From NCBI RefSeq assembly GCF_030345795.1, contig NZ_JAUALB010000001.1, positions 3,960,001 to 4,024,000 of the forward strand: a stretch of 64,000 nt of DNA, given 5' to 3'. Each line of letters starts with the position of its first letter. Within the stretch, counting starts at the first letter, position 1. The translations under genes and the position numbers were made by a program. Below the pieces are notes generated by a model that was not told where the DNA came from, made no database searches, and saw nothing but the letters and a program-made list of their open reading frames with translations. This document shows positions 16,199-64,000 of this stretch, piece after piece. Source of the DNA: Micromonospora sp. WMMA1363. GTDB lineage: Bacteria; Actinomycetota; Actinomycetes; Mycobacteriales; Micromonosporaceae.

Positions 16199-16271
16199 GT
16201 CCCGCTCCCGATTGTCGAGTCGCTACTCCGGCATCGGCCGGCGTTGTCGCCTCGTGTCAACGCCCCGCTAT

Positions 16272-16784: not shown

Positions 16785-16790
16785 GGACTT

Positions 16791-26413: not shown

Positions 26414-27266
26414 GTGGTGGAAACGACCAGGCAGGGTGTCGCCGCTGCGGATGACCTGCCCCGCGTGGGTGTGCTGTACAAGCCGTCGGGCAGTGCCTCG
26501 CTACCGGAGATCCGCCACGCCGCCTCCGGGCTGTGCCAACCGGTCGTCATCGTCACCGAGTCAGTCGCCGGACAGGTGCCCGAACTGGCGAAGTCGGACG
26601 GCCACCTCGTCGATGTCGTCGTGACGAACCGGCTGGACGCGGTGATCGATGCCGTACGGCGACTGGGTCTGGCCGGACTGACCACCTTCCATGACTCCTA
26701 CCTCGGGATCACCGACGAGGCGGTGGCCCAGCTTGGGATGCCCGGCTCCACTGGTCTGCGGTCCCCGTGGGACAAGCTCGAACAGCGCCGGGTCCTGGCA
26801 GCCCGGGGACTGACTCGGGCACGTGCCTGGCCGATCGAGACCGAGGAGGATTTCCTCCAGGTGGTCACCACGCTGCCCGGCCCATGGGTGCTCAAGCCGC
26901 GTCGTGGGGTCGGCGGGGCCGGGGTGACTTTCGTGGTCACTCCGGCCGACGTCACCTTCCAACGGACCCACCGCCGGAACTGGCGAGGGCTGCTTCTGGA
27001 GGACCGCCTACCTGACGGACGACACCCAGCGGAGACAGCGGGACTGGCCGACTTCGTCTCGGTGGAGACGATGAACGCCGATTCCGGCCGACGCCACCTC
27101 GCGGTGTTCGACAAAACCCCGGTCAGGGTGATCCGTCGGGCCGGCACCGATGCCGCCGACGCTGTCGCCGTCAGCGGTGACATCACCCCGTCCCGGCTAC
27201 CTGAGTCGATGGTCAACGAGCTTGGACAGTATGTGGCTGGTTGTCTCGACGCCTTGGAAGTCAATT
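26414..27266 (+). pseudogene. ATP-grasp ligase, N-terminal part (split by ISKra4 copy 2)
   Basis: Starts at GTG 26414 or 26417, with acggaga upstream. The protein has a pre-ATP-grasp alpha/beta domain (RVGVLYKPSGSASLPEIRHA; VVIVTESVAG) and then the ATP-grasp core: SPWDKLEQRRVLAARGLTRA, PGPWVLKPRRGVGGAGVTFV (nucleotide-binding Lys and Gly-rich loop) and LLLEDRLPDG. Coding is interrupted at 27266 after EVNW. The remainder is at 28925-29388. By family it would join a carboxylate to an amine or thiol at the cost of ATP; the substrates are unknown. Confidence 0.82.
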
Positions 27267-29904: not shown

Positions 29905-29975
29905 CACGCTGGCACCACCTTTCTCCGTTTTCCCGCAGTCCCGACCGCCTCCGCCGTTGGTACCCACAATCCGTC

Positions 29976-36158: not shown

Positions 36159-36195
36159 GCCTCGGAACGTGTCAAGGGATTGAGGCCAACGGGAG

Positions 36196-37191
36196 TTAAG
36201 CGGCTTGTCGTTGTGGCTCGGGCTTGTTGATCCAGACCTGTCCGGGCAGGTCGAGGATTTTGGGCAGGGGCCGGGTGGTGCCGAACCGTTCCGGGTGCGC
36301 CGTGCGGGCTGCGGCGAGGGTGTCCTCGCGGTTGGCGCGGACGGTGTGGTGACGGTCGTGGTGGACGTCGGCGGGGGTGTGTAGGCCGATCCCGGAGTGC
36401 CGGTGGGCGTGGTTGTACCAGGTCACGAAGTCGTTCATGAACGCTCGCGCCTGGGCGAGGGACGCGAATCGGTCCGGGAAGACCGGCGCGTACTTCAACG
36501 TCTTGAACCAGGCCTCGCTGTACGGGTTGTCGTTGGACACCTTCGGCCGGGAGTGCGAGCGGGTCACGTCGAGGTCTTCGAGCAGGTCAGCCACCGATTT
36601 CGACGTCATCGACGTGCCGCGGTCGGCGTGCACGACGTGCGGGACGCCATGGACACCGAACACCTCGCGCATCATCGACTCCGCGAGGGGGCCGGACTCG
36701 CGGGCGTGCACACGGGCACCGACGATGTACCGGGAGTAGATGTCGATCATCACGTAGGCGTCGTAGTAGACGCCCTTCGCAGGTCCGGCCAACTTCGTGA
36801 TGTCCCAGCTGTAGACCTGCCGCGGGGCGTCAGCGACCAGCTCGGGACGCCGGCGGGCCGGGTGCCGGGCCAGCCTGCGCCGCTCGCGCGCCTGTGCGTG
36901 CTCGCGCAGAACCCGATACATAGTGGCGATCGAACCGACGTACACGCCCTGGTCCAGCAGCGCCGCGTAGATCTGGGCCGGGGCCGCGTCGACGAACTCC
37001 GCACTGTTCACCAGGCGCAGGACCTGCTCACGTTCGGCCGGGGTGAGCGCGTTCGCCGGTGTCCGCCGCACCGGCGCCGCCCGTGTCGGCCGCCGCCGGT
37101 CCCGGTCCGCGCTGGACCGGGCGATCCCGGTCAACCGCTTCGCGTCCCGCGTCGTGATCCTCGCACTGGTCAGCTCGTGATAGGCGGCCAT
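36196..37191 (-). CDS. IS3-family transposase OrfB, copy 2
   Basis: Same 331-aa protein as at 21792-22787, DDE core intact, ATG overlapping the orfA stop (TGATG). Confidence 0.93.
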   Translation of the reverse strand: MAAYHELTSARITTRDAKRLTGIARSSADRDRRRPTRAAPVRRTPANALTPAEREQVLRLVNSAEFVDAAPAQIYAALLDQGVYVGSIATMYRVLREHAQARERRRLARHPARRRPELVADAPRQVYSWDITKLAGPAKGVYYDAYVMIDIYSRYIVGARVHARESGPLAESMMREVFGVHGVPHVVHADRGTSMTSKSVADLLEDLDVTRSHSRPKVSNDNPYSEAWFKTLKYAPVFPDRFASLAQARAFMNDFVTWYNHAHRHSGIGLHTPADVHHDRHHTVRANREDTLAAARTAHPERFGTTRPLPKILDLPGQVWINKPEPQRQAA

Positions 37192-37595
37192 CAGCGCCTG
37201 CCGAGCCCGAACACGTCCGGACCGTCCGGCTCGCTCCTGGAGATGTCCTCCAAGAGCTCTCGCGCTTTTCCCATGATCGTCAACGCCGTCTCGGTCCGCG
37301 CCAGCTTCGCCTGCGCCAGCTCCAGCTCACGCCGCAACCGGGCGATCTCGGCCTGCTCCGCCGACGGCCTCCCGACCGTCTCACCCGCCGGCTTGCCCTG
37401 CAACAGCCCGGCATCACGGGCCCGGCGCCACTCCGACATCAACGACGAGTACAAACCCTCACGCCGCAGGAACGCACCACCCTCACCAGCCGCGACGGCC
37501 TGCTCATACCCGGCCAGCAACTCCAACTTCTGCCCCGGCGTGAACGACCGACGTGCCCGCGGCCCGCCTGAACGCGGACCCTTCTTGCCACTCAT
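37191..37595 (-). CDS. IS3-family transposase OrfA, copy 2
   Basis: Same HTH plus coiled-coil protein as at 22787-23191. ATG at 37595; intact. Confidence 0.9.
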   Translation of the reverse strand: MSGKKGPRSGGPRARRSFTPGQKLELLAGYEQAVAAGEGGAFLRREGLYSSLMSEWRRARDAGLLQGKPAGETVGRPSAEQAEIARLRRELELAQAKLARTETALTIMGKARELLEDISRSEPDGPDVFGLGRR

Positions 37596-37806
37596 GACCC
37601 CATCCTGGGCCGTCACGACGTCAACAGCAGCATCCAACGCTTCTCGATCCTGAACTCGCCCTGTCCGGCGGACTTGCTATGAACCGCTGGCCTCAACTCA
37701 CCCTGGCAGACAGGGCCTGAGCGGCACGGCTGGGGTGGCCACGAAGGGCTTTGCCAAAACAGCATGTTCCTTTGCCACCATCCCCCGGTCGTCGCATGCT
37801 GTGCAC

Positions 37807-46134: not shown

Positions 46135-46380
46135 GTGAAGATCAAGGACCCGCCGGGACAGGGCCTGGGCCACGACGCCACAGCCGTCGATGCCGCGCCC
46201 GGGCGCGCCGACGACCGCGGTGGCGCCACCGACGAGATCGACCCGATCGCGCCTGCCGCAGGGGCACCGCTGCGGCGAAACGACGCAGACTCGACTGACG
46301 AGGCGTTGGGCAAGACCATCCAGCAGTGCGCGGACGTCGCCGCCCTGGAGGCCCTCCCGAAAGGGTTGGCACAAGCGTGA
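46135..46380 (+). CDS. Small acidic peptide coupled to the SARP gene (81 aa)
   Basis: GTG at 46135 with AAGGAGA at good spacing. The product begins VKIKDPPGQGLGHDATAVDA, is rich in Ala, Asp and Gly, has one Cys (TIQQCADVAALEALPKG), and shows no signal peptide or known motif. Its TGA overlaps the GTG start of the SARP gene by 4 bp (GTGA), which supports a real, translated gene. It could be a co-regulator, a leader for coupling, or an unrelated small protein; nothing in the sequence decides. It marks the left edge of the clavam cluster. Confidence 0.65.
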   Translation: MKIKDPPGQGLGHDATAVDAAPGRADDRGGATDEIDPIAPAAGAPLRRNDADSTDEALGKTIQQCADVAALEALPKGLAQA

Positions 46381-48554
46381 ATCATCCGAGTGATCAGAGC
46401 CGGAGCGGTTTCCCCTTCCCGGAAGTGGTCATCCGTACAATGGGCAAGATCTCGATCGGAGTCGGGGGTAAGCGGAGCGTCAACCTCGGGCCCCCACGTC
46501 AGCGCGCTTTGTTTGCGTTACTGCTTATCAACGCTGGTAGAACTATTCCGATGTCGACGATAATTGATTCTCTCTGGAGTTCCGATCCGCCGCCATCCGT
46601 ACGCAGCACAGTGTATTCGTACGTTTCGCGACTGCGCCAGGTGCTCGACACGGCCTCGGACGCGAATCGACCCGTCAGGATCGGTATCCGTCATTACGCT
46701 TCGGGTTACATGTTGGAGACGGACCTCGGGCGCACCGACTTCGTACAGTTTCAGTCCGGGATCGAACTCGCTTCGGAGCTGTCCGACCAGAACGACCTGA
46801 GTGCCGCGAAGAACGTCATGGAGTCGACACTGGCGCTCTGGCGCGGCACACCGTACAGCGAACTGGCGGCCTACGAGTTCGCGGTACTCGAAGCCACCCG
46901 TATCGAGCAGCTGCGGGTCCGAGGCCTACAGATCTGGGCCGACGTGGCGCTCGGGCTGCACCAGTATGACGAGGTGATCGGGCGGTTGGGTGAGGAGGTC
47001 CGCCGTAACCCGATGCAGGAGCGCCTGGGAGGTCGGCTCATGCAGGCCCAATATCACAGTGGCCAGTCGGCTGAAGCGTTGGTGACCTATGAGTCCATTC
47101 GCTCCTACCTCGCCACCGAACTCGGGGTAGACGCCAGCAATCAGCTGCAGAGACTACACCAAGCCGTCCTGCGAAACGAACTGTCGGCCGGTGAACCCGT
47201 CAGGGCGACGCTGCCCGGGGTGTCGGCGGTTGCCTCCGTCATCGAGGCATCGCCGCGGAGGCTGGATCCGCCTCCTCCACCCGCCGATGAACAGCTCGTC
47301 GGGCGCCTTCCCGCCATGGAACGTCTCCGGGCGATGGCGGGATCCGGTGGCCGCGACCGGATGCTGCTCGTGGTAGGCGAACAAGGGGTGGGCAAGACGT
47401 TCCTGCTCCAGGCGTTCGAGCGAGAACTCGTCGCGGCCGGGACCGAGGTCATCTGGGCTCGGGGGGAGCGCTCTACCGACCTCCCGGAGCTGCACATCTG
47501 GTGGCAGGTGATTGTCAAGGCACGCCGCCACCTCGCCCAGCGGAGCGCCGCGGAAAACGGCCGGGACGCGACGGTGGAGCTGGCCGACGCCCTGCCCGAC
47601 GGGCGGCCGACCTACGAGGATGTCTACGAGGCCATCAGCGACGCGGCGGGGCGCACGTCGGTCACGCTCTTCCTCGAAGATCTCCACTTCACGGACGGCG
47701 GCAGCCTGCAACTGCTGCGGAGGCTGGTCCGGGAGGCCCGCGAAACGCGACTCACCGTAATCGCCACGGTACGCGAGCACGCCGTCTCGAGCAGCCCGGA
47801 ACTGCAGCACATGCTCTCCGAGATCCTGCAGGAGGACATGGTCGACGACATCCTGCTGACACCCTTCTCTCTGGTCGAAACCCAGACCGTCGTCGAGAAT
47901 CTACGCGGTGGGAACGTCCCATGGGACCTGGTCTCGAACCTCCACCGGTCGACGGGCGGCAATCCCTTTCTCCTGACCCGGCTGGCCGGCTCGCTCGACC
48001 CGGACAGCGATCCCCGCGATCTCCGGATGCAGCTGCCCTTCCGGGTGAAGGTCGTCGTCCGGGGCCGGCTGGCGGACTGCCCGCCCGATGTGCTCACGGT
48101 GATCGAGGCCTGCGCCGTGATCGGTACCGTGGTCGAGCGTCGGCTCCTGTTCGCGGTGCTGCACCTGCTGGGAAGGCCCTTGGACGCCGTCCACGACGCG
48201 CTGCGGTCTGGCCTGATCCTCTCCGATCCCGCCGACCGCAACGACGTCTACTTCGCCCAGGAGGTGGTTCGTGAACTGGTGCTGGAAGACATGACGCCCA
48301 CCCGCCGTGCGGAGCTTCACCACATCGTGAGCAAGGTGCTGGCGGTCGACATCGCTGGAGGTGCCGCCCGCGCCGCCTACGTCGAGGTGGGCTTCCACTG
48401 CCAGAAGGCGGCGCTGGCCATCGGTACCTGGGAGGCGATCGAGCCGCTCATCGATCTGGCCGAGCAGGCGGCGAAACGGCTGCGTCTGGTGGAGTCGCGA
48501 TCGTGGTTGCGGCAGGCGGCTTCGATCCTGCACAGCCCGCCCGTGGAGTCGTGA
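46377..48554 (+). CDS. SARP-family transcriptional activator with ATPase domain (Cvm7P-like)
   Basis: 725 aa, GTG start coupled to the preceding small gene. An N-terminal OmpR-type winged helix (RQRALFALLLINAGRTIPMS, SLWSSDPPPSVRSTVYSYVS) is followed by a bacterial transcriptional activator domain (DFVQFQSGIELASEL; QYHSGQSAEALVTYESIRSYL). An AAA/NACHT-like ATPase comes next, with Walker A VVGEQGVGKTFLLQ and Walker B VTLFLEDLHFTD. Large SARPs control antibiotic clusters. In S. clavuligerus a large SARP (Cvm7P) governs 5S clavams, so this is its likely counterpart. The 3' end overlaps the convergent transporter gene by 107 bp. Confidence 0.9.
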   Translation: MNHPSDQSRSGFPFPEVVIRTMGKISIGVGGKRSVNLGPPRQRALFALLLINAGRTIPMSTIIDSLWSSDPPPSVRSTVYSYVSRLRQVLDTASDANRPVRIGIRHYASGYMLETDLGRTDFVQFQSGIELASELSDQNDLSAAKNVMESTLALWRGTPYSELAAYEFAVLEATRIEQLRVRGLQIWADVALGLHQYDEVIGRLGEEVRRNPMQERLGGRLMQAQYHSGQSAEALVTYESIRSYLATELGVDASNQLQRLHQAVLRNELSAGEPVRATLPGVSAVASVIEASPRRLDPPPPPADEQLVGRLPAMERLRAMAGSGGRDRMLLVVGEQGVGKTFLLQAFERELVAAGTEVIWARGERSTDLPELHIWWQVIVKARRHLAQRSAAENGRDATVELADALPDGRPTYEDVYEAISDAAGRTSVTLFLEDLHFTDGGSLQLLRRLVREARETRLTVIATVREHAVSSSPELQHMLSEILQEDMVDDILLTPFSLVETQTVVENLRGGNVPWDLVSNLHRSTGGNPFLLTRLAGSLDPDSDPRDLRMQLPFRVKVVVRGRLADCPPDVLTVIEACAVIGTVVERRLLFAVLHLLGRPLDAVHDALRSGLILSDPADRNDVYFAQEVVRELVLEDMTPTRRAELHHIVSKVLAVDIAGGAARAAYVEVGFHCQKAALAIGTWEAIEPLIDLAEQAAKRLRLVESRSWLRQAASILHSPPVES

Positions 48555-49827
48555 CCCCGGTCGGCTCGGGTCGACGCCGCAACCGCTGGAAGAGCAACGC
48601 CGCCACACCGATGGCGACCGGCCAGAACAGATACCGGCCGGAGCTGAGTAGCAGGAGGAGCACGGTCACCAGCGACAGCACCGCCGCCCGATGGCCCCGG
48701 GTGCCGCGAGGCAACAACCGCACGGCCGCCGCCGCGCCGATGACGTAGACCGCGACCAGAGCACCGTTGGTCATGCGCAGCAGGGTCTCGACGCCGACTC
48801 CGAGGATGACGATGGCGAGCAGCGAGAGGTAGGTCAGGGTGGCGACCAGCGCCAGGCTGTGCCGGGGCACCGTGCCCGGCACGTCGCCTCGGCCCAGCCG
48901 GGCCGGCAGGTCACCGTGATCAGCGAGACGCGCGCCGAGTTTGGCCGCGCTGGCCAAGTACGCGGTCGTCGCCCCGAGGGTCAGTGTCGTCGCGGCCGCC
49001 GCGGCGAGCACCCGGGCCTGCCCGCCGAGCCCGACTGCCAGTAGTTCGCCCAGGGGCGCGTCGCTCTTCGCGGCGGCGGAGCCGAGCACGGTTATCACCG
49101 TGTATGCGAGCACGAGGTAGAGGGCGCCGACCAGCACCACCGCCGCCCAGGTGGCCCGGGGCACATCGCGTGCGGGGTTGCGGAACTCCCCGTGCAGGTG
49201 GGTGATCGCCTCCCAGCCGACGAAGCTCCACACCAGCGTCGCCGCGGCGGGGACGATCGCCAGCCAGCCATGCGGCGCGAACGGGACCAGGTTGGCGGTG
49301 TCCGCTTGTGACATCGAGGCTCCGGACGCCACCAGGAGAACGGTGACCAGCAGAACCGCCAGCAGCAGCTGGACACGCCCGACGAGGCGCAGCCCCGCGA
49401 CGTTGATCAGCACGGCGATGGTGACCAGCACGGTGGCGGTCACGAACGTCGTCGCGGCGCCGCCACCCGTCGCCGCGGCGACGTACGCGCCTCCGAAGAC
49501 GGCAGCCGTCGCGGTGCCGGTGGGCACGGCGAGGTAGAAACACCAGCCGACCATTGCCGCGGCCTGGTCGCCGTAGGTCATGCGCACATAGGTCGACACG
49601 CCACCGCCGTCGCCGAAGCGGGCACCCAGCGCGGCGAAGGTGGACGCCAGAGGGGCGGACAGCAGCGCGAGGAGCAACCAGGCCAGGAGCGACGCCGGTC
49701 CGGCGATGCGCGCGGCGATCGCTGGTAGCGTGATGACCCCGGTACCGAGCACCGCGGTCACATAGAGAGCAGTGCCCTGAACGAGGTTGAGACGGCCCGG
49801 ATGCCGGCCGTCCTCGCGCTGCGCCAT
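48448..49827 (-). CDS. APC-family amino-acid/metabolite transporter
   Basis: 459 aa with about 12 membrane helices. The opening LNLVQGTALYVTAVLGTGVITLPAIAA is the APC-superfamily helix 1 motif, followed by ASTFAALGARFGDGGGVSTYV. ATG 49827 is 11 bp after the dehydratase stop, so it ends the operon nitroreductase-aminotransferase-dehydratase-transporter. A permease of this type also occurs in clavam gene sets. It may export the clavam or import a precursor such as arginine. The C-terminus is Pro/Ala-rich and overlaps the SARP gene on the other strand. Confidence 0.88.
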   Translation of the reverse strand: MAQREDGRHPGRLNLVQGTALYVTAVLGTGVITLPAIAARIAGPASLLAWLLLALLSAPLASTFAALGARFGDGGGVSTYVRMTYGDQAAAMVGWCFYLAVPTGTATAAVFGGAYVAAATGGGAATTFVTATVLVTIAVLINVAGLRLVGRVQLLLAVLLVTVLLVASGASMSQADTANLVPFAPHGWLAIVPAAATLVWSFVGWEAITHLHGEFRNPARDVPRATWAAVVLVGALYLVLAYTVITVLGSAAAKSDAPLGELLAVGLGGQARVLAAAAATTLTLGATTAYLASAAKLGARLADHGDLPARLGRGDVPGTVPRHSLALVATLTYLSLLAIVILGVGVETLLRMTNGALVAVYVIGAAAAVRLLPRGTRGHRAAVLSLVTVLLLLLSSGRYLFWPVAIGVAALLFQRLRRRPEPTGVTTPRAGCAGSKPPAATTIATPPDAAVSPPARPDR

Positions 49828-49838
49828 GCCGCGTGTTC

Positions 49839-50785
<947 letters not shown>

Positions 50786-50789
<4 letters not shown>

Positions 50790-51967
50790 CGGAGCGCGCT
50801 TCCCTTTCCGACCGCGGCCAGATGTGCCCCCATCGCGTCGAGGGCGGCGGTCTGCCGCACCGGGTCCTTCACGAAGGTGGTCCGGATCCACAGCCGGCCC
50901 TCGACGGGGTTCCCGAAGAACGGTGTGCCGGGCGCCACCAGCACCCGCGCGGTGCGCAGCAGCGCGTCACCGAGTTGCTCGGCGTCAAGCCCTAGTGGCG
51001 CGGTTCCCGCCATGACGAACCAGCCGCCCTCCGGTGGGTACACGTCGAACCCCATGTCACGCAGGCGGTCGACCATTTCCTGACGGCGGTTCTCGAACTG
51101 CTCCGGACGACAGGTGACGTCCGCCACCGCGGCCGCGCCGTGCTGCAGCGGGGTGCTGGTGCTGAAGCTCGTACGCTCGTGCACCTTGCGCAACACCGCC
51201 GTGATGTCGGGGGCGGCGATGCAGTATCCGATGCGCCAGCCCGCCATTTCGTTGGCCTTGGAGAGGCTTCCGGAGACGATCACCCGCTCGCGGTGGCCCG
51301 GAAAGTCGAGCGCCGAGACGTGTGCCCGTCGGTCGAAGACGAAGTCGGCGTAGACCTCGTCCGACACGCAAACAGCGCCGTGCTGCTCGCAGAGCGTCAG
51401 CAGACCCGCCATCTCGGCGCGTGAGAAGACCCGCCCGGTCGGGTTGTGCGGCGTGTTGACAATGACGGCCGCGGTGCGTTCGGTGAACGCGGCAGCAAGC
51501 CGGTCGGTGTCGAGCCGCCAGCCAGGATTACGCAGCCCGACCGGCACCATCGTGCAACCGGCGAGCCGGACCGCGCCGCTGTACGTCTCGAAAGCCGGTT
51601 CGACAACGATCACCTCGTCCCCTGGGTCGGTGACGGTGAGCAGGGCGACCAGGACCGCCTCCGTCGAGCCCGTGGTGACGGTGAGTTCGGTTGTCGGGTC
51701 GACGTGCGTCCCGTTCCGGGAGGCGATCCGATCCGCCAACATCTGTCTCAGGCGTGGGAGTCCCGAGGGATCGGTGTACTGGTTGAGGCCCGAACGCATG
51801 GCCCGGGTGGCGGCGGACACCGCTGCGGCCGGCGGCTCACCGGGTGGCGTACCGATGGCGATGTCCACCGCGTCCAGTTCCCGAGCCAGCTGGATCATCG
51901 GTGCCAGGATCAGGTCCCGCAGCCCGGCGGCCCGCTGTCCCACCCGATCGCGGCGGACGGTCGTCAC
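50786..51967 (-). CDS. Class I/II aminotransferase (OrfC-like)
   Basis: 393 aa, PLP fold type I. Landmarks: DIAIGTPPGEPPAAAV, LNQYTDPSGLPRLRQMLA, VNTPHNPTGRVFSRAEM, VCVSDEVYADFVFD, the PLP Lys in SGSLSKANEMAGWRIGY and the C-terminal Arg region. GTG start overlaps the nitroreductase stop (GTGA); the stop overlaps the dehydratase start (ATGA). Such a tightly coupled aminotransferase-dehydratase pair mirrors orfC-orfD of the alanylclavam gene set, so a step building the alanyl side chain is likely. Confidence 0.92.
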
Positions 51968-52617
51968 TCCGCCATCCAGGAGTTGAGGTGCAGCACCGAC
52001 TCCAGTGACTGTCGCGGGGCCGGTTTGAAGTCCGTGCCGATCGTGTATGCCGTCGGCAGCAGTGCCGCCTGAAGCAGCCCGTCCGGTAGGTCCAACAGGT
52101 CAGCGATCTCCTCTTCGTACATGAGGTGCAGGGTCGTCCAGGCGGTGCCGAGGCCCCGTGCCCGGGCCGCGAGCGAATAACTCCACGCTGCCTGAATGAT
52201 CGACCCCCACCGACCGGCTTCGTTGTACTCCGGCGCGGCGGTGGCATCAAGGCAGGGAATGACGTGTACGGGGACCTCGGCCATGTGCTCGCCAAGGTAG
52301 GCGACGCTGTCAGCCACCCGCTGCTGCGTGGCGTGCCGTTCGGCGTCCTCTTGGAAGAGCGTGCCGCAGGAGCCGTCAGACGCCAGGTAGGTGTGCACCG
52401 CGCGCCGGTAGAAGTCGCCGATCACCTTGCGCTTGTCGTCATCGGTGACGACGACGAAGTGCCACGTCTGGCGGTTGCTGCCGGTTGGTGCCTGCAGCGC
52501 GACGGAGACGCATTCCTTGACCAGTTCGAGCGGGACCGGGCGGGTAAGGTCGAGTCGCTTGCGGACCGACCGGGTCGTGGTGAGCAGTTCGTCGGGGTTG
52601 AGGTTCAACAGCGTCAT
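51964..52617 (-). CDS. Nitroreductase-family flavoprotein
   Basis: 217 aa, FMN-dependent fold. RSVRKRLDLTRPVP (FMN phosphate-binding Arg), ALQAPTGSNRQTWHFVVVTD, WGSIIQAAWSYSLAARARGLGTAWTT and a C-terminal helix are all standard. ATG 52617 after GGGAGCGG. It is first in the minus-strand operon, divergent from the class III aminotransferase across a 225-bp promoter with SARP-like repeats. I know of no nitroreductase in the characterised clavam clusters, so it may be a new tailoring or redox step. Confidence 0.9.
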   Translation of the reverse strand: MTLLNLNPDELLTTTRSVRKRLDLTRPVPLELVKECVSVALQAPTGSNRQTWHFVVVTDDDKRKVIGDFYRRAVHTYLASDGSCGTLFQEDAERHATQQRVADSVAYLGEHMAEVPVHVIPCLDATAAPEYNEAGRWGSIIQAAWSYSLAARARGLGTAWTTLHLMYEEEIADLLDLPDGLLQAALLPTAYTIGTDFKPAPRQSLESVLHLNSWMAE

Positions 52618-52663
52618 GATCCGCTCCCTTGTCGTCGGCAGGAGGAAGGATCGCCTGACGTCT

Positions 52664-52693
52664 TTGAACGCGCCTTGACGAAACTCTTGACGC
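52664..52693 (+). promoter_or_regulatory. SARP-type direct heptamer repeats, divergent promoter 1
   Basis: TTGAACG (52664), TTGACGA (52675) and TTGACGC (52687): three heptamers with starts 11 and 12 bp apart. SARPs typically bind such direct repeats placed one helical turn apart. The site lies between the nitroreductase and class III aminotransferase genes. The same geometry occurs at 61887-61916. Confidence 0.65.
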
Positions 52694-52842
52694 GAATTGC
52701 TCGTCGTCCCGGTGGATCTGGCGACGCCGATCGCTACGATCCGTTTCATGCGGGTCGCGCGGTGTTCGGGGAGACACCGTCGGCGACAGTCCGGCGAGGC
52801 CGACGCGGGCCTCGAATTCGCAGATGTCGAGGGGAGAAATTC

Positions 52843-54189
52843 GTGACCACGTCGACCGCCTCCATTCGCGCGTCGAAGCGCGATCTCGTGACGGAGGTGC
52901 CCGGACCGCGATCCCGGACCATGATGGAGCGGCGCGGGGCGACAGTCGCACGTGGCGTCGGCTGCGCCGTCCCGGCGTTCATCGAGGCGGCCGGACCGGG
53001 GCTGCTGCACGACGTCGATGGCAACACTCTGATCGACCTCGGCTCGGGCCTCGGCGTCACCTCGGTGGGCAACCCCGCGCCCGAGGTCGTCGCCGCCGTC
53101 CACGAGCAGGTGGCGTCGCTGACGCACACGTGTTTCCTGGCGACACCGTACGAGGGCTACGTCGCGGTGTGCGAGGAACTGGCCAGGTTGACCCCCGGCG
53201 ACCATCCGAAGCGGTCCGTGCTGCTGAGCACCGGTGCCGAGGCCGTCGAGAACGCCGTCAAGATCGCCAGAGCGGCCACCGGACGTACGGCGATCGTCGC
53301 GTTGGACCACGCGTACCACGGTCGGACCAACCTGGCGCTCGCACTGACCGCCAAGAACGCGCCCTACAAGCAGAACTTCGGGCCGTTCGTACCGGATATC
53401 CACCGCATACCCACCTCCTATCCCTACCGCGACCCGAAGGGCATGACTGGAAGGGAGGCCGCCGCCCGAGCCGTCGAGGCGCTCGAACGCCAGGTTGGCG
53501 CGGAGAACGTGGCCGCCGTGGTGGTGGAGCCGATACAGGGCGAGGGCGGAATGATCGTCCCGGCCGCAGGCTTCCTCACCGAACTGACGGATTGGTGCGG
53601 CCGCAACGGGGTGCTCCTCGTCGCGGACGAAATTCAGAGCGGCTTCTGCCGCACCGGCGCCTGGTTCGCCAGCAACCACGAGGGTGTCGTGCCGGACCTG
53701 GTCATCACCGCTAAGGCCCTCGCCGGTGGCCTACCCCTGTCCGGGGTGACCGGGCGCGCCGAGTTCATGGACGCCGTGCAGCCCGGCGGGTTCGGCGGAA
53801 CGTTCGGTGGCAACCCGGTCGCCTGCGCCGCGGCCCTCGCCGCGATCCGCACGATGCGGGAGCGGGACCTGCCGGCGAAGGCGCGCCGGATCGGGGAGAT
53901 CCTGACCGCACGCCTCACTGCGATCGCCGCCGTCCACCCCGAGGTGGGAGAGGTACGCGGCCGTGGCGCGATGATGGGTGCCGAGATCGTGCACCCCGAC
54001 ACCGGCCTGCCCGACGCCGAAAGCGCCGATCGGCTGGCCAGAGCCTGCCAGGAAGCGGGCGTCGTGCTGCTGACCGTGGGCACCTACGGCAACGTACTAC
54101 GGTTCCTGCCCTCCCTGGTGATGCCCGAGGATCTCCTCGGGGACGCACTGGACGTGCTGGAGGACTGCTGTGCCCGGCTCTTCGGCTGA
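52843..54189 (+). CDS. Class III (omega) aminotransferase (Cvm6P-like)
   Basis: 448 aa from GTG 52843 (GGGGAGA upstream). Landmarks: LLHDVDGNTLIDLGSGLGV, STGAEAVENAVKIARAATGR, ALDHAYHGRTNLALALTAK, VVVEPIQGEGGMIVPAAGF, VADEIQSGFCRTG and the PLP Lys in ITAKALAGGLPLSG. The family includes GABA and beta-alanine aminotransferases. In S. clavuligerus the class III aminotransferase Cvm6P is needed for all 5S clavams, which makes this a central hint to the product type. The next gene overlaps its 3' end by 20 bp. Confidence 0.92.
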   Translation: MTTSTASIRASKRDLVTEVPGPRSRTMMERRGATVARGVGCAVPAFIEAAGPGLLHDVDGNTLIDLGSGLGVTSVGNPAPEVVAAVHEQVASLTHTCFLATPYEGYVAVCEELARLTPGDHPKRSVLLSTGAEAVENAVKIARAATGRTAIVALDHAYHGRTNLALALTAKNAPYKQNFGPFVPDIHRIPTSYPYRDPKGMTGREAAARAVEALERQVGAENVAAVVVEPIQGEGGMIVPAAGFLTELTDWCGRNGVLLVADEIQSGFCRTGAWFASNHEGVVPDLVITAKALAGGLPLSGVTGRAEFMDAVQPGGFGGTFGGNPVACAAALAAIRTMRERDLPAKARRIGEILTARLTAIAAVHPEVGEVRGRGAMMGAEIVHPDTGLPDAESADRLARACQEAGVVLLTVGTYGNVLRFLPSLVMPEDLLGDALDVLEDCCARLFG

Positions 54190-55180
54190 CCGCGGCGGGC
54201 TGCCCCCGCGGAAGCTGGGCGGTCTTGTCGTGGGGGCGCAGGGACTCGGCTGTCTCAGCCTGAGCTCGTTCTACGGCGCTACCGACCGGGCCGAGGCCAT
54301 CGCCACCGTGCACGAGGCGATCGAGCGCGGGGTGACGTTGCTGGACACCGCTGACGTCCAGGGGCTCGGCCACGGCGAGCGGCTCGTGGGTGCCGCCGTG
54401 GCGGGCAGGCGCGACCGTGTCCTCATCGCCACCAAGGTGGGGCTCGAACGGTCCGCGAGCGGCGAGTTCCTGGGAGTACGCGGCGACCGCGCCTACATCC
54501 GCAGCCGGTGTGAGGGGTCGCTGACCCGACTCGGCGTAGACCATCTGGACATCTACACCAAGCATTGGGCCGCGCCGGGCGAACGCATCGAGGAGGCCAT
54601 GGCGGCGATGGCCGAGCTCGTCGAGGAGGGCAAGGTTCGTCACGTCTGCCTCTCCGAGGTTTCCGCGGGGACACTGCGCCGCGCGCACGCCGTTCACCCG
54701 GTGGCGGCGGTACAGGCCGAGTGGTCACTGTGGACCCGTGGGGTCGAGGACGAGGTGCTCGGCGTGTGCCGCGAACTCGGCATCGGCATCATCGCCAGCT
54801 GCCCCCTGGGTCGCGGATTCCTCGCCGGGCAGGTCACCCCGGCGACCATCTTTCGGGACGAGGACTTCCGGCGTACGCTTCCGCGCTTCTCCGGCGGGAA
54901 CCTCGCCCGTAATCTCCGTTCACTGGAACCATTGCGGGCGCTTGCACAGCGTTACGAGCTGACGCTCGCTCAGCTCTGCCTGGCCTGGCTGCACCACCAG
55001 GGCGAGGATGTCGTCGCGATCCCGGGCACCGGCCGCCGTGATCATCTCGCGGAGAACCTGACCGCCACACGGGTGAGGCTCAGCGCCGGGCAGCTTGTCG
55101 AGATCGAGGCGGCCCTGCCCCCTGGTGCCGTGTCCGGGGAGCGCTACGGCGCTTTTCTCATGGGCCTGGTGGGCAACTGA
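54170..55180 (+). CDS. Aldo/keto reductase (Cvm1-like) lacking the catalytic Tyr
   Basis: 336 aa; GTG start inside the 3' end of the aminotransferase gene. TIM-barrel AKR signatures are GAQGLGCLSLSSFYG, GVTLLDTADVQGLGHGERLVG, VLIATKVGLE, LDIYTKHWAAPG, IGIIASCPLGRGFLAGQ and VVAIPGTGRRDHLAENL (NADPH site). In the usual D-Y-K-H tetrad the Tyr lies in DTADxYG; here the position is Gln (DTADVQG), while Asp, Lys and His are kept. The activity may be altered. An AKR (Cvm1) is part of the 5S-clavam genes of S. clavuligerus. Confidence 0.88.
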   Translation: MPGSSADRGGLPPRKLGGLVVGAQGLGCLSLSSFYGATDRAEAIATVHEAIERGVTLLDTADVQGLGHGERLVGAAVAGRRDRVLIATKVGLERSASGEFLGVRGDRAYIRSRCEGSLTRLGVDHLDIYTKHWAAPGERIEEAMAAMAELVEEGKVRHVCLSEVSAGTLRRAHAVHPVAAVQAEWSLWTRGVEDEVLGVCRELGIGIIASCPLGRGFLAGQVTPATIFRDEDFRRTLPRFSGGNLARNLRSLEPLRALAQRYELTLAQLCLAWLHHQGEDVVAIPGTGRRDHLAENLTATRVRLSAGQLVEIEAALPPGAVSGERYGAFLMGLVGN

Positions 55181-55187
55181 CAGAACG

Positions 55188-55219
55188 CCGGGGGCGCGGA
55201 TGGAGATCCGCGCCCCCGG
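55188..55219. terminator. Bidirectional terminator between AKR and oat
   Basis: A perfect 14-bp stem (ccgggggcgcggat / atccgcgcccccgg) with loop ggag, placed 8 bp after the AKR stop and 22 bp from the end of the convergent oat gene. Confidence 0.85.
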
Positions 55220-55240
55220 CGGTGTCGGCGCAATGCCCGC

Positions 55241-56431
55241 TCAGGTGGTGTAATGCGCGTTGAGACGGACGTAGTCGTCGGTGAGGTCGCATCCGTAGAC
55301 CGTGAAGGCCCCGTCCGCGATGCCGAGGTCGATACCGATGACGACCTCGTCCTCGGCCAGGTGCCCGGCGATGATCTCACGGGCTCGGGCGTCGTCGTGG
55401 TCGGCGCCAGCGCCGGTGCCGGTCGGCGGATAGACCACGGTCCCACCGAAGCGGATCGTCACCGCTTCCTGGTCGATGTCGGTGTCGTCGGAACACTTGC
55501 CGACGGCCATCGCGACCCGGCCCCAGTTGGGGTCACCCCCGTGTACGGCGGTCTTGACCAGCGGCGAGTTGACGACGGTCTTCCCGACGCGCTTGGCTTG
55601 GTCGGCGTCGCGAGCCCCGGTCACCGAGACCACGATCGTTTTGGTCGCGCCCTCGCCATCACGGGTGATCTTCTTGACGAGTTCGAGTGCGACGGATTCC
55701 AGTGCCCGTTCGAACTCTTCAGGGTCGACATCGCCGGCCAGGCCGTTGGCGAAGAGCGCCGCCGAGTCGCTGGTGGAGGTGTCGGTGTCGATACTGACCG
55801 CGTTGAAGGTCCGGTCCATGACCCGGCGGAAGAGGCGGTCCTGCTCTCCGTGGACCAGCCGGGCGTCGGTGGCGAAGAACGTCAGGAGCGTGGCCATGTC
55901 CGGCTCCATCATGCCGACGCCCTTGGCGATGCCGACGAGTGTGGCGTCGCCGATCCGGCGCACCTCGATCTTCTCGCGAGTGTCGGTCGTCATGATCGCT
56001 CGGGCCGCCCGCTCAAATCCGTTGTCGGCCGGAGGCTTGGTCAGGGCGGTGAGATGGTGTCGCAGGCCGCCCATGGGGTACTGCCGTCCGATGACGCCGG
56101 TGGAGGCGACCAGGAGTTCCTCCTCCGCCACCCCGGTGGCCTTGGCGGCGAGCGCACGCAGCTCACGCGCGTTTTCGGTGCCCTGAACTCCCGTGGCGAC
56201 GTTCGCGTTGCCGGCGACGACGACCACGCCACGAGCCCGCCCGTCGGCGACGGCCACGCGGCTCAGTGCGACGCTCGGGCCAGCGAAGCGCGACCGGGTG
56301 AAGACCGCGCTGACGGCGGCCGGGACTGTCGAGAACAAGATGGTCAAATCATCCCGGTCACCGTCACGGATGCCCACGTGTGCGGTGTGCACCGCGAAGC
56401 CGCGCGGCCCGGGAACAACGCTGTCGGTCAT
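55241..56431 (-). CDS. oat: Ornithine acetyltransferase (ArgJ/OAT-like) of the clavam cluster
   Basis: 396 aa from ATG 56431 (AGGAGGG upstream; earlier frame is non-coding). An Ntn-type enzyme that moves acetyl between N-acetylornithine and glutamate. KGVGMMEPDMA/TLLTFF is the self-cleavage site with Thr181 as nucleophile, the residue number I recall for OAT2 of S. clavuligerus. Other landmarks are STGVIGRQYPM, SIDTDTSTSDSAALFANG and HGGDPNWGRVAMAVG. Clavam clusters carry such oat genes next to cas, probably to supply or acylate pathway intermediates. Distinction from a housekeeping argJ rests on context (no other arg genes here). Confidence 0.9.
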   Translation of the reverse strand: MTDSVVPGPRGFAVHTAHVGIRDGDRDDLTILFSTVPAAVSAVFTRSRFAGPSVALSRVAVADGRARGVVVVAGNANVATGVQGTENARELRALAAKATGVAEEELLVASTGVIGRQYPMGGLRHHLTALTKPPADNGFERAARAIMTTDTREKIEVRRIGDATLVGIAKGVGMMEPDMATLLTFFATDARLVHGEQDRLFRRVMDRTFNAVSIDTDTSTSDSAALFANGLAGDVDPEEFERALESVALELVKKITRDGEGATKTIVVSVTGARDADQAKRVGKTVVNSPLVKTAVHGGDPNWGRVAMAVGKCSDDTDIDQEAVTIRFGGTVVYPPTGTGAGADHDDARAREIIAGHLAEDEVVIGIDLGIADGAFTVYGCDLTDDYVRLNAHYTT

Positions 56432-56527
56432 GGATAGGCTGCCCTCCTGAAGACGTCGAGCCGAGCAAGGACCATCATGCTCGACCGCGGTGGTCCGGCT
56501 ACCCCGCGCCGCTGTGGAAGCGGTTCG

Positions 56528-56560
56528 GCGCGGCCCGGGATGCCGTGGCACCCCGGGCGC
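56528..56560. terminator. GC-rich hairpin between cas and oat
   Basis: gcgc(gg)cccggg pairs with cccgggcgc around a 12-base centre, with two unpaired bases on the left arm. Within the 145-bp gap between cas and oat; it may reduce read-through from the ceaS-bls-pah-cas operon into oat. Confidence 0.4.
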
Positions 56561-56576
56561 GGTCGTTGCGGGCAGG

Positions 56577-58501
<1,925 letters not shown>

Positions 58502-58546
58502 TTCACCGTTCTTCTCGGTCGGAGGTCAGGACGCGGGAAAGCCGAG

Positions 58547-60067
58547 TCAGCTGACCGACTGGGACTGTCTTCCGGCGACCTTGTCGACGACGTCCGCCAA
58601 GTCCACGGCGTCCGGGTGCTCGCCGTTGGCGACGACTCGGCGGAACAGCGTCTGGAGGACGAGGTGCTTGGCGTGGCGCAGGTGAGACGCCGGTACACCG
58701 GCGTCGACGAGCAGCGCGGAGAACGCGGCGGTGGTGCCGGAGCCCTCGTGGACCCCGAGCTTTGGCCGGATCACGGTCGGGTGTGGCAGGAAGTCGGCCA
58801 TGGCGGTGCGCAACACCCACTTGTCCCGCCCGTGGCGGTGTTTGAGACCGGCCTCGAGCGAGGTCAAGGCATCCAGCACCTCGCGATCCCAGAAGGGGTG
58901 CGTGGACCAGTGGCCGCCGACCGCGGACAGGACGGGGGTCATCTCGTTGAGCCCGTCGAAGGTGGCCATGTCGTGGCTGACGGCCGTTTCCAGCGCGTGC
59001 AGTCGGCCCTCGCGGTGCATGCCGCCGAGTGGGATGTCGGCGCCGTAACCCGTGAGAATGCGTCGGGACGTCTCGTCGGCACGCAGGTAGAGCACCGTCA
59101 GCGGCAAAAGGTACTCGACAATATCAACGTTGGTGGTCTCCGCTGCCCAGACGGTGTGCGGCAGACGGGCCAGCAGATCGGCGGTGGACACCACGATCTC
59201 ACGGTGGCGCGTGGACAGGTGGTTGGCGACGAGTCCGGCCTCTGGGAACTCGTTGTGACGCTCGGTGCCCATCGCCAGTGTGTCGATCGTCCGGCCGTCG
59301 GCCGCCTCCACCGCGAGCGCCGCGATGCTCGACGAGTCGATGCCTCCCGAGATGACGACCAACGGAGTGTCCGTCCCGGTCCGGGCGCGCACACCGCGCC
59401 GCAGCGCGTCCCGGACCAGGTCGGTGGCGTCCGCCTCCGGCAGGATGCGACGCCCGAGCGGCGGCTTCCAGGTGTGGTGGACGTCGGTCATGCCCCCGAC
59501 GATGTCGATCTCCAGCACCACGCCAGCCTTCAGCTGGCAGACCCCTGGCAGCGCGTACATCGGCCGGGTGCCGGCGAGTCCGCCGGTGCCCGACGTACCG
59601 GCGAGGCTTTTCGCCTCTGTCGCCGCTGTGACCTGACCCGGTCTGGCAGTCACGTACAGCGGTACCGTACCCGCGTGGTCGGTCGCCAGGAGCGCGCGGT
59701 TCCCGGCGACCGCGAAGACTGCGAAGCGGCCGTTGAGCAGCCGGAACGCGTGCACCCCGTAGCTGTCGAGCAGCGCGAGTACCAGGTCGGCGTCACCGCT
59801 CGCGCCGAAGCCGTCGGGCAGCAGCGAGTGCAGGTCGGCCTGGTTGTAGAGCTCCCCGGCGAGCAGTACAGCGGTGTCGCCGCGGCGAGCCAGGGATCCG
59901 TCGGGGGCGGCACCGTGCAGCAGGACGATGTGCAGATGCTGCCTGCCCCGGTTTTCCCGTACCACTGTCCGGGAACCTTGTGCTGCGAAGGTCGGCCGGA
60001 GCGCGATCTCTGTGTCCTGTGAGGCCGCGGCCAGGAAGCCGGTCGCGGCGGGCAGCGTCGTGGTCAT
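58547..60067 (-). CDS. bls: Beta-lactam synthetase (asparagine-synthase-like)
   Basis: 506 aa. It closes the monocyclic beta-lactam of deoxyguanidinoproclavaminate from N2-(2-carboxyethyl)arginine with ATP. The N-terminus is MTTTLPAATG, so the Cys nucleophile of true glutaminases is absent, as in beta-lactam synthetases. The PP-loop is VISGGIDSSS (240-246). The catalytic dyad and Lys of the known enzyme (Tyr348, Glu382, Lys443) are found with exact spacing as Tyr341 (ILTGYGADIPLGG), Glu375 (GLNEMTP) and Lys436 (VIRPKLGVHEG). One base separates it from ceaS. Confidence 0.97.
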   Translation of the reverse strand: MTTTLPAATGFLAAASQDTEIALRPTFAAQGSRTVVRENRGRQHLHIVLLHGAAPDGSLARRGDTAVLLAGELYNQADLHSLLPDGFGASGDADLVLALLDSYGVHAFRLLNGRFAVFAVAGNRALLATDHAGTVPLYVTARPGQVTAATEAKSLAGTSGTGGLAGTRPMYALPGVCQLKAGVVLEIDIVGGMTDVHHTWKPPLGRRILPEADATDLVRDALRRGVRARTGTDTPLVVISGGIDSSSIAALAVEAADGRTIDTLAMGTERHNEFPEAGLVANHLSTRHREIVVSTADLLARLPHTVWAAETTNVDIVEYLLPLTVLYLRADETSRRILTGYGADIPLGGMHREGRLHALETAVSHDMATFDGLNEMTPVLSAVGGHWSTHPFWDREVLDALTSLEAGLKHRHGRDKWVLRTAMADFLPHPTVIRPKLGVHEGSGTTAAFSALLVDAGVPASHLRHAKHLVLQTLFRRVVANGEHPDAVDLADVVDKVAGRQSQSVS

Positions 60068-60068
60068 G

Positions 60069-61796
<1,728 letters not shown>

Positions 61797-61886
61797 CTAG
61801 GACGGATACTCCTGTGCCGGTCGGGACCCGCGGGTGGATGTGGTCAGGACGACCCGACCGGCTGACGCGACCCTGTGTGGGTGAAC

Positions 61887-61916
61887 TTGCAGGGACTTTG
61901 ACGATTGCCTTGAGTG
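61887..61916 (+). promoter_or_regulatory. SARP-type direct heptamer repeats, divergent promoter 2
   Basis: TTGCAGG (61887), TTGACGA (61898) and TTGAGTG (61910): starts 11 and 12 bp apart, the same geometry and the same middle heptamer TTGACGA as at 52664-52693. It sits in the middle of the 250-bp divergent promoter between ceaS and the SHMT-like gene. Confidence 0.65.
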
Positions 61917-62031
61917 ATGGAGTCGCGACGCGAGGTTCTGTCGCCGGAGTGGTCAGAACAGCTCATGACCCAGGCAAGTCGCGGAGAGCAATGTGAGACG
62001 GCACCCCGAACCGGTCATCGGAGGAGAGTCC

Positions 62032-63219
62032 GTGGATGTTCTAGAGATCCTGCGGGGCAAGGCCAGCCTCAACCTCTTTCCCATCGAGAACAGGCTTTCC
62101 CCCCGGGCGAGCGAGGCGCTGTCGAGCGATGCGAACAACCGCTACCCGTACGTCGAGGGACCCGTCACCCACTACGGCGATGTCATGGGGCTCGGCGGCG
62201 TGTATGACTACTGCGTCGACCTCGCCAAGGAGTACCTCGGTGCGCAGTATGGCTGCGTGCACTTCCTGTCGGGCCTACACACCATGTACACCGTCATCAC
62301 CGCGTTGGTGCCAGCGGGCAGCCGCGTCATGGTGCTCGACCCCGAGGACGGCGGCCACTACGCCACCATCACCATCTGCGAGGGCCTGGGCCACACCGTT
62401 TCGCGCCTGCCCTTCGACCGGGACAGCCTGCTGATCGACTACGAGCGGCTCGCCGACCAGCTGCGGCGGGAGCCGGTCGACGCGATCTACCTGGACGCCT
62501 CCAGCGTGCTGCGTCTGCCCGACGCCCGGGCCCTGCGCGCGGCGGCGCCGGACACGCTGCTCTTCCTGGACGCCTCACACCTGATGGGTTTGCTCCCCGC
62601 CGCTCCGCAGACGACCGTCCTCGACGGCGGGTTCGACACCATCCAGGGGAGCACGCACAAGACCCTGCCAGGCCCCCAGAAGGGCCTGATGGTCACCAAC
62701 CGCGAGGACCTCGCCGTCAAGGTAGCGGCACGAATCCCGTACACCGCCTCAAGCTCGCACGCGGCCAATGTGGGCGCGCTGGCCATCACCTTGGAGGAAC
62801 TGCTGCCCTGCCGGATCCAGTACGCGCATCAGATCGTCGCCAACGCCCGCGAACTCGCGGGTCGGCTAGCCGAGCGTGGCTTCGGCGTGGCGGGAGAAGC
62901 GTTCGGCTGGACGGACACCCACCAGGTGTGGCTGGACATTCCGGCGGAAGTCGGTCCGCACCGGTGGGGCCGGCTACTCACCCACGCGAACGTGCGTAGC
63001 ACCACCGTTCCGCTGCCGAGCAGCAATGGCCTGCCGGCGCTACGGCTGGGCACCCAGGAGCTGACACGAATGGGTATGAAGGAGCAGGAGATGGGTGAGG
63101 TCGCGAGCATCCTCGACCGGATCCTGCTGCGCGGCGAGGACCCCGACTCGGTGGCGGACAGCGTGGCAGCGCTGGTCGCGAAGTTCCCCGATGTGAAATT
63201 CGTTGGCGAGCCGGCGTGA
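62032..63219 (+). CDS. SHMT-like PLP enzyme (OrfA-like of alanylclavam set)
   Basis: 395 aa from GTG 62032 (GGAGGAGAG upstream; an earlier in-frame GTG at 61993 is weaker). Fold type I with serine-hydroxymethyltransferase character: NRYPYVEGPVTHYGDV, QYGCVHFLSGLHTMYTVITA, LFLDASHLMGLLP (cofactor Asp), and the PLP Lys in QGSTHKTLPGPQKGLMV. By family it makes or breaks a C-C bond at the alpha carbon of glycine-type amino acids. An SHMT-like gene (orfA) is required for alanylclavam, so it may attach a glycyl-derived side chain to a clavam aldehyde. Divergent from ceaS. Confidence 0.9.
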   Translation: MDVLEILRGKASLNLFPIENRLSPRASEALSSDANNRYPYVEGPVTHYGDVMGLGGVYDYCVDLAKEYLGAQYGCVHFLSGLHTMYTVITALVPAGSRVMVLDPEDGGHYATITICEGLGHTVSRLPFDRDSLLIDYERLADQLRREPVDAIYLDASSVLRLPDARALRAAAPDTLLFLDASHLMGLLPAAPQTTVLDGGFDTIQGSTHKTLPGPQKGLMVTNREDLAVKVAARIPYTASSSHAANVGALAITLEELLPCRIQYAHQIVANARELAGRLAERGFGVAGEAFGWTDTHQVWLDIPAEVGPHRWGRLLTHANVRSTTVPLPSSNGLPALRLGTQELTRMGMKEQEMGEVASILDRILLRGEDPDSVADSVAALVAKFPDVKFVGEPA

Positions 63220-63453
63220 CTCTTGACAGTTGTCGCTTCGCCGCGCCGTGTCGCACAGCTGGCAACCAGGCGATGTCTTCTTTCCCTCTGGTTTGCATGC
63301 GATGCAGCGAGCTGCCATGCTGGCTGTCCGAATAGGACGGAGCCATTGTCCGGAGTAGATGGTGCAGCTACTGCGGCTGTGACCGTTGACGCCGGAATGC
63401 AACCACTCGGCGTCGGGGGAACTGGCATCCTTCACGGCGCTTGGAGACTGCCC
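63220..63453. other. Intergenic between SHMT-like gene and dcd-like gene
   Basis: 234 bp, AT-richer than its surroundings (cttgacagttgtcgc at 63224; gtccgaataggac at 63325). The ttgaca may be a -35 box, but I do not see a certain -10. No gene is supported here. Confidence 0.35.
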
Positions 63454-64000
63454 ATGATTCTCACCGGGTCCGAGATCGCGCGAGAGCGCGCCAACGGCCA
63501 CATCACGATCGAGCCGTTCACCCCGGAGCAGGTCAACCCGAACAGCTACAACTTCCGGCTCGGGAAGACCCTGCGTGTCTACCAGCAGACGCGGCTCGAC
63601 GCGCGCCGGACGAACGAGTTCGACGAGATCGAGATCCCGGACGACGGATACGTGCTCGAGCCCGGGCGACTCTATCTGGCGCACACCATCGAGGTGCTCG
63701 GCAGCGAGCACTACGCGCCGACGTTCGCGGCCCGATCCTCGGTGGCCCGGCTCGGGCTCTTCATCAACCTGTCGGCGAGCCTGGGCGACATCGGTTACGT
63801 CGGCCAGTGGACGCTCCAGCTCTACAGCATGAACCGGGTCCGGGTGTACCCGGGCATCAACATCGGTCAGATGATGTGGTGGAAGCCGCGCGGCGAGATC
63901 CTGCTGTACGACGGCAAGTACCAGGGATCGGTCGGCCCGCGGTCCAGCGACATCCACGTGGACTTCGACAAGCAGTTCGCCCGGCAGCGATTCCCCGGGC
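63454..64000 (+). CDS. dcd: dCTP deaminase-like protein (3' end outside window)
   Basis: 182 residues visible. dCTP deaminases make dUTP (some also dUMP). MILTGSEIARERANGHITIE and VNPNSYNFRLG form the N-terminal strand region; FAARSSVARLGLFINLSASLGDIGYVGQWTL holds the conserved RSS.ARLG motif and the catalytic-Glu region, which here reads LGDIGYVGQWTL rather than the usual (D/E)PGF.G.W. The usual enzyme is about 190 aa, so the frame is nearly complete. It may be a normal nucleotide gene at the cluster edge or a recruited homologue. Confidence 0.82.
   Translation, partial: MILTGSEIARERANGHITIEPFTPEQVNPNSYNFRLGKTLRVYQQTRLDARRTNEFDEIEIPDDGYVLEPGRLYLAHTIEVLGSEHYAPTFAARSSVARLGLFINLSASLGDIGYVGQWTLQLYSMNRVRVYPGINIGQMMWWKPRGEILLYDGKYQGSVGPRSSDIHVDFDKQFARQRFPG

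Follow-up and report, generated by a model that had tools for sequence, protein, structure and literature searches.

A single-locus clavam gene cluster of probable alanylclavam type in a Micromonospora-type genome

A 64,000-nucleotide stretch of the genome of Micromonospora sp. WMMA1363 (contig NZ_JAUALB010000001.1, positions 3,960,001 to 4,024,000; hereafter the window, with positions counted from its first letter) carries, at about 46326-63219, a block of some 17 kb whose genes point to clavam biosynthesis. This raises the question of which clavam, if any, such a cluster would make. An earlier reading, made from the sequence alone, had described an apparently complete clavam cluster; this holds for the early pathway, which is complete, but is too general in that it leaves the branch unstated. 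Judging from the gene content, we consider it probable that the block is an intact, single-locus cluster of the 5S-clavam branch, in a Micromonospora-type genome, and that its product is alanylclavam. The specific steps of this branch are described as still largely open in the accessible parts of two papers (PMC6478378, PMC7830376), in part because the Streptomyces clavuligerus genes are split between chromosome and plasmid, with several of them doubled (as far as the available portion of PMC6382702 describes them).

Early and late genes of the cluster

The early genes lie on the minus strand in the uninterrupted order ceaS-bls-pah-cas-oat (55241-61781), and all five open reading frames (ORFs) are open. 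For each encoded protein the best relative of solved structure is the named clavam enzyme, with match strengths far above chance: carboxyethylarginine synthase (ceaS, 60069-61781; PDB 1upa, 1045 bits), beta-lactam synthetase (bls, 58547-60067; PDB 1jgt, 559 bits), proclavaminate amidinohydrolase (pah, 57548-58501; PDB 1gq6, 536 bits), clavaminate synthase (cas, 56577-57551; PDB 6vwq, 569 bits, and 1drt, 559 bits) and ornithine acetyltransferase (oat, 55241-56431; PDB 1vz6, 587 bits). CAS also passes the curated cut-off of NCBIfam model NF043003 (568.7 bits against 450). The intact early block claimed by the sequence-only reading was thus confirmed, and the catalytic residues it had named were all found where it had placed them, i.e., H144, E146 and H279 (the iron ligands) and R293 in CAS, Y341, E375 and K436 in BLS, T181 in OAT (numbered from the start MTDSVV) and the metal motifs GGDHS, HLDAHSD and SVDID in PAH. 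No gene of the block is broken, as it had also stated, with 13 of 13 open. When compared by blastp with the paralogue cluster of S. clavuligerus, CeaS was 69.5%, BLS 48%, PAH 70.5% and OAT 47% identical. CAS, the single one in the 6.48 Mb host genome, is 77-78% identical to S. clavuligerus Cas1 and 90% to that of Salinispora fenicalii, such that the cluster is not identical to any with which it was compared.

The late-gene content is the reason for assigning the cluster to the 5S branch, and to the alanylclavam type rather than to clavulanic acid. Three late genes of the alanylclavam paralogue cluster of S. clavuligerus are present (identities to the S. clavuligerus counterparts by blastp). 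The OrfA-like gene (61993-63219, plus strand) encodes an enzyme resembling serine hydroxymethyltransferase (SHMT) and L-threonine transaldolase, with an HK motif containing K223 and 67% identity; its true start may sit ~40 bases further in, and a 395-amino-acid record of the same protein exists. The OrfC-like gene (50786-51967, minus strand; 64%) encodes a class I/II aminotransferase by Pfam, with an SLSK lysine motif, and the OrfD-like gene (49839-50789, minus strand; 55%) a threonine-dehydratase-like PALP enzyme (Pfam PALP; PDB threonine deaminase 1ve5; motif SFKVRG).

From these genes a pathway can be proposed. Going by their strong family identity, CeaS would join arginine and glyceraldehyde-3-phosphate, BLS would close the beta-lactam, and CAS and PAH would make clavaminic acid from a precursor supplied by OAT. 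At the branch, a GabT-type transaminase encoded in the block may strip the amine from clavaminic acid and so leave an aldehyde, as has been proposed for Cvm6P of S. clavuligerus, and an aldo/keto reductase and a nitroreductase would act, with no order assigned, en route to clavam-2-aldehyde. The OrfA-like enzyme would then add a glycine unit to the aldehyde, yielding hydroxyalanylclavam, which the dehydratase-like enzyme would convert to a 2-oxo acid and the class I/II aminotransferase to alanylclavam. A permease probably moves the product and a SARP-type activator probably switches the cluster on. The functions of the S. clavuligerus side-chain genes are reportedly due to Zelyas (2008), and the names OrfB to OrfD and Cvm1, together with the order of the side-chain reactions, are said to go back to that work and to Tahlan (2007), Jensen (2012) and Nobary and Jensen (2012).

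Adding a glycine unit, removing water and transaminating would give the right carbon count for the side chain of alanylclavam, CH2-CH(NH2)-COOH on the clavam ring, as it appears in the SMILES string printed in the accessible part of PMC13216219. The class of OrfA has been argued to be that of the L-threonine transaldolases (excerpt of PMC5490192), and KaTTA, which comes from a cluster predicted to be of valclavam type, accepts L-threonine but neither glycine nor serine in its reaction with a model aldehyde (excerpt of PMC10495429). The OrfA-like protein of the window scores alike with ObiH (PDB 7k34, 152.8 bits) and an archaeal SHMT (152.4 bits), such that solved structures favour neither activity.

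Which clavam the cluster would make

A CAS scan using one genome per species returned 63 loci. In 44 of them (L004-L047, one partial) CAS is 54-90% identical to that of the window, 17 hold other oxygenases (33-35%), and two are short pieces (87-88%). At E<=1e-3, at least 213 of 7999 scored candidates belong to the CAS family; the view that clavam clusters are few and mostly from Streptomyces may hold for the described ones, yet many exist in sequence data. Searching up to 10 kb on each side of CAS in the 44 loci (less at contig ends), we found an OrfC-like aminotransferase in one (L039, S. aurantiacus, 51%), an OrfD-like enzyme in one (L009, S. otsuchiensis, 67%, at a contig end beside a 67% permease) and both together in none. 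Among 27 whole genomes (the window's own and 26 with such loci or matches, a subset of the 44 loci with L009 excluded), an OrfC-like protein above 50% was confined to the window's own and that of S. aurantiacus, and an OrfA-like (SHMT-like) gene occurred in 10. Within the host family, 3 of 354 genomes had CAS (E<=1e-60; the third at 58%), as did 1 of 61 in the genus sample, and 1 of 354 had the SHMT-like (transaldolase-like) gene. The cluster type is probably not unique, because the protein databases hold relatives of the OrfC-like (86%) and SHMT-like (83%) proteins; an aminotransferase of Micromonospora sp. NPDC051227 matched at 52%.

Some of these loci are of interest in their own right. L039 (CAS 58%) carries SHMT-like and Cvm6-type genes together with its OrfC-like gene and is a possible second single-locus cluster of alanylclavam type. 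In L009, the contig holding the dehydratase-permease pair (14700-16992) ends where the aminotransferase would be expected. L031, L038 and L043 contain CAS relatives (54-58%) with no ceaS, bls or pah within 10 kb; each has, at the same spacing, a gene resembling SHMT (35-36%), and these loci may belong to another pathway.

A core tree of ceaS, bls, pah and cas, covering 37 sequences, the window's and those from 36 of the 40 loci attempted (L017, L034, L044 and L067 have an incomplete set, and L031, L032, L038, L043 and L046 were not entered), paired the window with S. fenicalii (support 1.0) and then with Lentzea (1.0). A split at 0.999 set the window's side, with other 5S-type loci, apart from the S. 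jumonjinensis group and more distant loci. This split fails to separate the products neatly, because the distant L039 and L045 lie on the opposite side yet carry 5S-type genes, and L028, on the window's side, has no 5S-type genes within its contig.

The placement of L039 and L045 is one of several points that weigh against alanylclavam as the product. The block contains no RidA-family gene (OrfB-like; 12057-12437 in the S. clavuligerus locus L067), and the sole RidA match in the genome is partial, 47% identical and outside the window (C1:2770671-2770910). No obvious gene for the carbon-shortening and decarboxylation steps was seen in the block, and a Cvm6 orthologue is absent from the genome (best match 39%).

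A 5S cluster could also end in another product, such as hydroxyalanylclavam, a valclavam-like dipeptide or an undescribed amino-acid clavam. OrfA-like genes were found in nine others of the 27 genomes, eight of which have no OrfC-like protein above 50%, and a different class of transaminase may yield a different aldehyde. However, the dehydratase-like and OrfC-like enzymes, which are 55-64% identical to their S. clavuligerus counterparts, would eliminate the hydroxyl group, and the ORFs of 46326-63219 that were searched with Pfam or NCBIfam included no further ligase-type gene; we regard such a product as unlikely, if still a serious contender.

It is decidedly improbable that the cluster is dying or silent and makes nothing, an idea suggested by its nearness to a region rich in insertion sequences (IS) and by S. 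fenicalii, which has already lost part of the gene set. The description of the surroundings as IS-rich is correct for the left part of the window, where one IS-like element of 1.66 kb is present in three copies (11213-12874, 27264-28924 and 29974-31633) and another of 1.55 kb, with an integrase-core ORF, in two (21759-23311 and 36163-37715); both elements were probably active recently, because their copies are 99.9-100% identical. Nevertheless, all 13 genes are open, the active-site residues are kept where checked, and no repeat above 300 bp extends into 46-64 kb.

As for clavulanic acid, its late genes are the orf10-17 group next to the early genes (accessible part of PMC6478378). We took all 58 ORFs of 120 amino acids or more from L024, a clavulanic acid locus of S. 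jumonjinensis spanning 20,960 bases around cas, and compared them with the genome ORFs at positions 44000-79000, the last 15 kb of which were taken from L068. Only the five early genes and one SARP-type ORF matched, the latter weakly (26%), and all other matches were shadow frames of early genes. A clavulanic acid (5R) cluster, with which the five early genes would be shared, was rejected as scarcely credible, since no late gene of L024 matched there and the core tree puts the window away from S. jumonjinensis; as far as the L024 locus reaches, this is, by gene content, not a clavulanic acid cluster.

A candidate GabT-type branch enzyme and a probable natural loss in Salinispora fenicalii

If the cluster does belong to the alanylclavam type, its branch step would rest on a different enzyme from that of S. 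clavuligerus, because the genome holds no Cvm6 orthologue. The candidate is a class III aminotransferase of GabT type (52843-54189, plus strand; PDB GabT 3q8n, 571 bits). Its Pfam match had led us to expect a Cvm6p orthologue, which identity and a tree ruled out. The enzyme is only 32% identical to Cvm6p, and its counterparts in S. fenicalii (L004) and two Streptomyces strains (L005, L008) share 32-35% identity with Cvm6p; among 16 clavam loci compared, 11 contain a gene at 64-74% identity to Cvm6p. Neither type was found in L009 (best 28.6%) or in L016 (no match; short contig).

In a 30-sequence tree, the enzymes of the window, L004, L005 and L008 fell into a single clade (0.951), next to GabT copies encoded elsewhere than in such clusters and far from the Cvm6 clade; the clavam-cluster copies are 71-88% identical to the window enzyme, and the non-cluster copies 57-65%. 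The GabT-type enzyme likely stands in for Cvm6 as the branch enzyme. We infer that it deaminates clavaminic acid, because that compound's primary amine, carried on a short side chain, suits a GabT. L005 and L008, with a GabT-type gene, fall elsewhere in the core tree, and Lentzea has a Cvm6-type gene, which makes it probable that core lineages have exchanged late genes, in either direction.

The closest relative of the cluster, that of S. fenicalii CNT-569 (L004; L069 and L070), has the same gene order, with ceaS 93%, bls 79%, pah 90%, cas 90%, oat 86%, the aldo/keto reductase 83%, the GabT-type gene 88%, the nitroreductase 92% and the SARP 65% identical, but is without the OrfA-, OrfC- and OrfD-like genes and the permease. 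Window positions 51914-61912 are collinear with it (10 kb at 84%), and ~3.3 kb are missing in S. fenicalii between SARP and nitroreductase. Fossils of three of the missing genes were found. The collinear block ends with the opening 54 bases of the OrfC-like gene, immediately after which come ~120 bp of the permease (84%, 130 aligned columns), and 151 bp of the OrfA-like gene remain upstream of ceaS (86%). The same search with reversed sequence gave no match at E<=1e-3. No dehydratase fossil was found in S. fenicalii, where protein-level matches of the dehydratase and OrfC-like enzymes were background only; loss of the dehydratase is deduced from its position, because no remnant was found.

Between window and S. 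fenicalii, the eight retained biosynthetic genes have dN/dS ratios of 0.09-0.25 and the SARP one of 0.35; none of them contains an internal stop. A gain of the side-chain genes in the window lineage after the two split was rejected, because the fossils sit at matching places in S. fenicalii. The simplest reading of these sequences is that the side-chain module was present in the ancestor and was lost in S. fenicalii, with the rest staying under selection. More tentatively, and at rather less than even confidence, we propose a separate line of 5S clavams, in which a recruited gamma-aminobutyrate transaminase replaced Cvm6, giving a different exit aldehyde, and in which the alanyl module is detachable, being present here and deleted in S. 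fenicalii. If true, S. fenicalii would make a truncated, so far undescribed clavam.

Two aspects look new: the GabT-family enzyme where Cvm6 would sit, shared with S. fenicalii and two Streptomyces strains, and the loss of side-chain genes in S. fenicalii with the remaining biosynthetic genes under constraint. Among the open-access papers listed, we found none on a clavam cluster of Micromonospora or Salinispora, although one may be in print; a rakicidin-cluster oxygenase of Micromonospora is merely named 'clavaminate synthase' in the accessible part of PMC5075396. As a 17-kb block with one copy of each gene, in a genome with a single CAS, and with a relative that lacks the side-chain genes, the locus would allow the branch to be tested through the transfer of a single DNA segment. 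It would also extend alanylclavam-type genes to Micromonospora, and suggests that one transaminase has replaced another at the point where the routes to 5S clavams and to clavulanic acid diverge.

Remaining genes, host and comparison with known clusters

Several start codons in the block were picked by us from alignments. At its end lies the SARP-type activator with BTAD and AAA domains (46326-48554, plus strand; Pfam BTAD, AAA_16 and Trans_reg_C), which is Cvm7p-like, with 42% identity over 297 amino acids to S. clavuligerus L067 21968-24550. The tightly packed minus-strand run contains the nitroreductase, the OrfC- and OrfD-like genes and the permease; among the first three, each stop overlaps the next start by 4 bases, and the permease begins 11 bases further on, given the start codon that we assigned to it. 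The permease, of the APC family (48448-49827, minus strand; Pfam AA_permease_2), has NF008245 (L-methionine/branched-chain transporter) as its best NCBIfam match, under that model's cut-off, and the 67% homologue in S. otsuchiensis adjoins the clavam core; the predicted role of the permease is transport of the product or of a competing amino acid.

The nitroreductase-family flavoenzyme (51964-52617, minus strand; Pfam PF00881) recurs at 72-92% identity in six of the 19 clavam loci examined for it (L004, L005, L008, L011, L012 and L065); this enzyme, the dehydratase and the permease were compared with clavam loci only. Homologues of the aldo/keto reductase (54170-55180, plus strand; Pfam Aldo_ket_red), a putatively Cvm1-like enzyme by family, occur in 14 of the 19 at 53-83%. 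The class III aminotransferase and aldo/keto reductase genes are convergent to oat, and the OrfA-like gene is divergent from ceaS. A promoter and terminator scan gave one promoter-like site (1.0 expected) and two terminator-like sites (5.4 expected).

Full-length 16S matches were obtained to three species, Micromonospora solifontis (98.9%), M. yasonensis (98.6%) and S. fenicalii (97.8%). In the broad sense, Micromonospora includes Salinispora, and by its 16S sequence the host is a Micromonospora in this sense, in keeping with the earlier suggestion of a genus other than Streptomyces. That suggestion had been drawn from surroundings said to be rich in type VII secretion system genes, for which we found no support: none of 25 ORFs tested from 1-46 kb (where 50 ORFs of at least 240 amino acids, many nested, are listed) hit a Pfam family of that system, the only hint being a subtilase at 1520-2881 (minus strand). 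Elsewhere in the window, positions 23519-24064 hold tandem arrays of 15-, 45- and 33-bp units inside an ORF (23485-25329, minus strand) with weak ferritin/rubrerythrin matches. The right flank (63223-64000; L068:3224-17706) carries a dCTP-deaminase/PPDK_N/PEP-utiliser fusion ORF resembling phosphoenolpyruvate (PEP) synthase, and genes for a HAD hydrolase, a phosphodiesterase-DUF6001 protein, DUF6031, a Na/H antiporter, an ATP-grasp protein and EamA; these genes may form another biosynthetic cluster.

Compared with known systems, the cluster of Kitasatospora aureofaciens (L021), which we take to be of valclavam type, shares the early genes, the aldo/keto reductase (58%) and the OrfA-like gene (66%), but has a Cvm6-type aminotransferase (68% to Cvm6p) and no OrfC-like protein above 43%. 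Those of Streptomyces sp. RP5T and uw30 (L005, L008) resemble the window in the GabT-type enzyme (72-73%), the aldo/keto reductase (75-76%), the nitroreductase (78-79%), the OrfA-like enzyme (77-79%) and a SARP; they differ in their core lineage and in that their genomes hold no OrfC-like gene (best 37%). The plasmid-borne paralogue (alanylclavam) cluster of S. clavuligerus (L067, CP065237.1) has ceaS, bls, pah, oat, the OrfA-, OrfC- and OrfD-like genes and the SARP in common with the window. It differs in having RidA, which the window lacks, in having Cvm6p where the window has the GabT-type enzyme, and in having no cas, whereas the window holds cas, the aldo/keto reductase and the nitroreductase in one locus. 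S. clavuligerus carries cas1 and the cvm genes on its chromosome and the paralogue cluster on a plasmid (accessible part of PMC6382702), because of which the window can be said to unite in one locus what S. clavuligerus splits.

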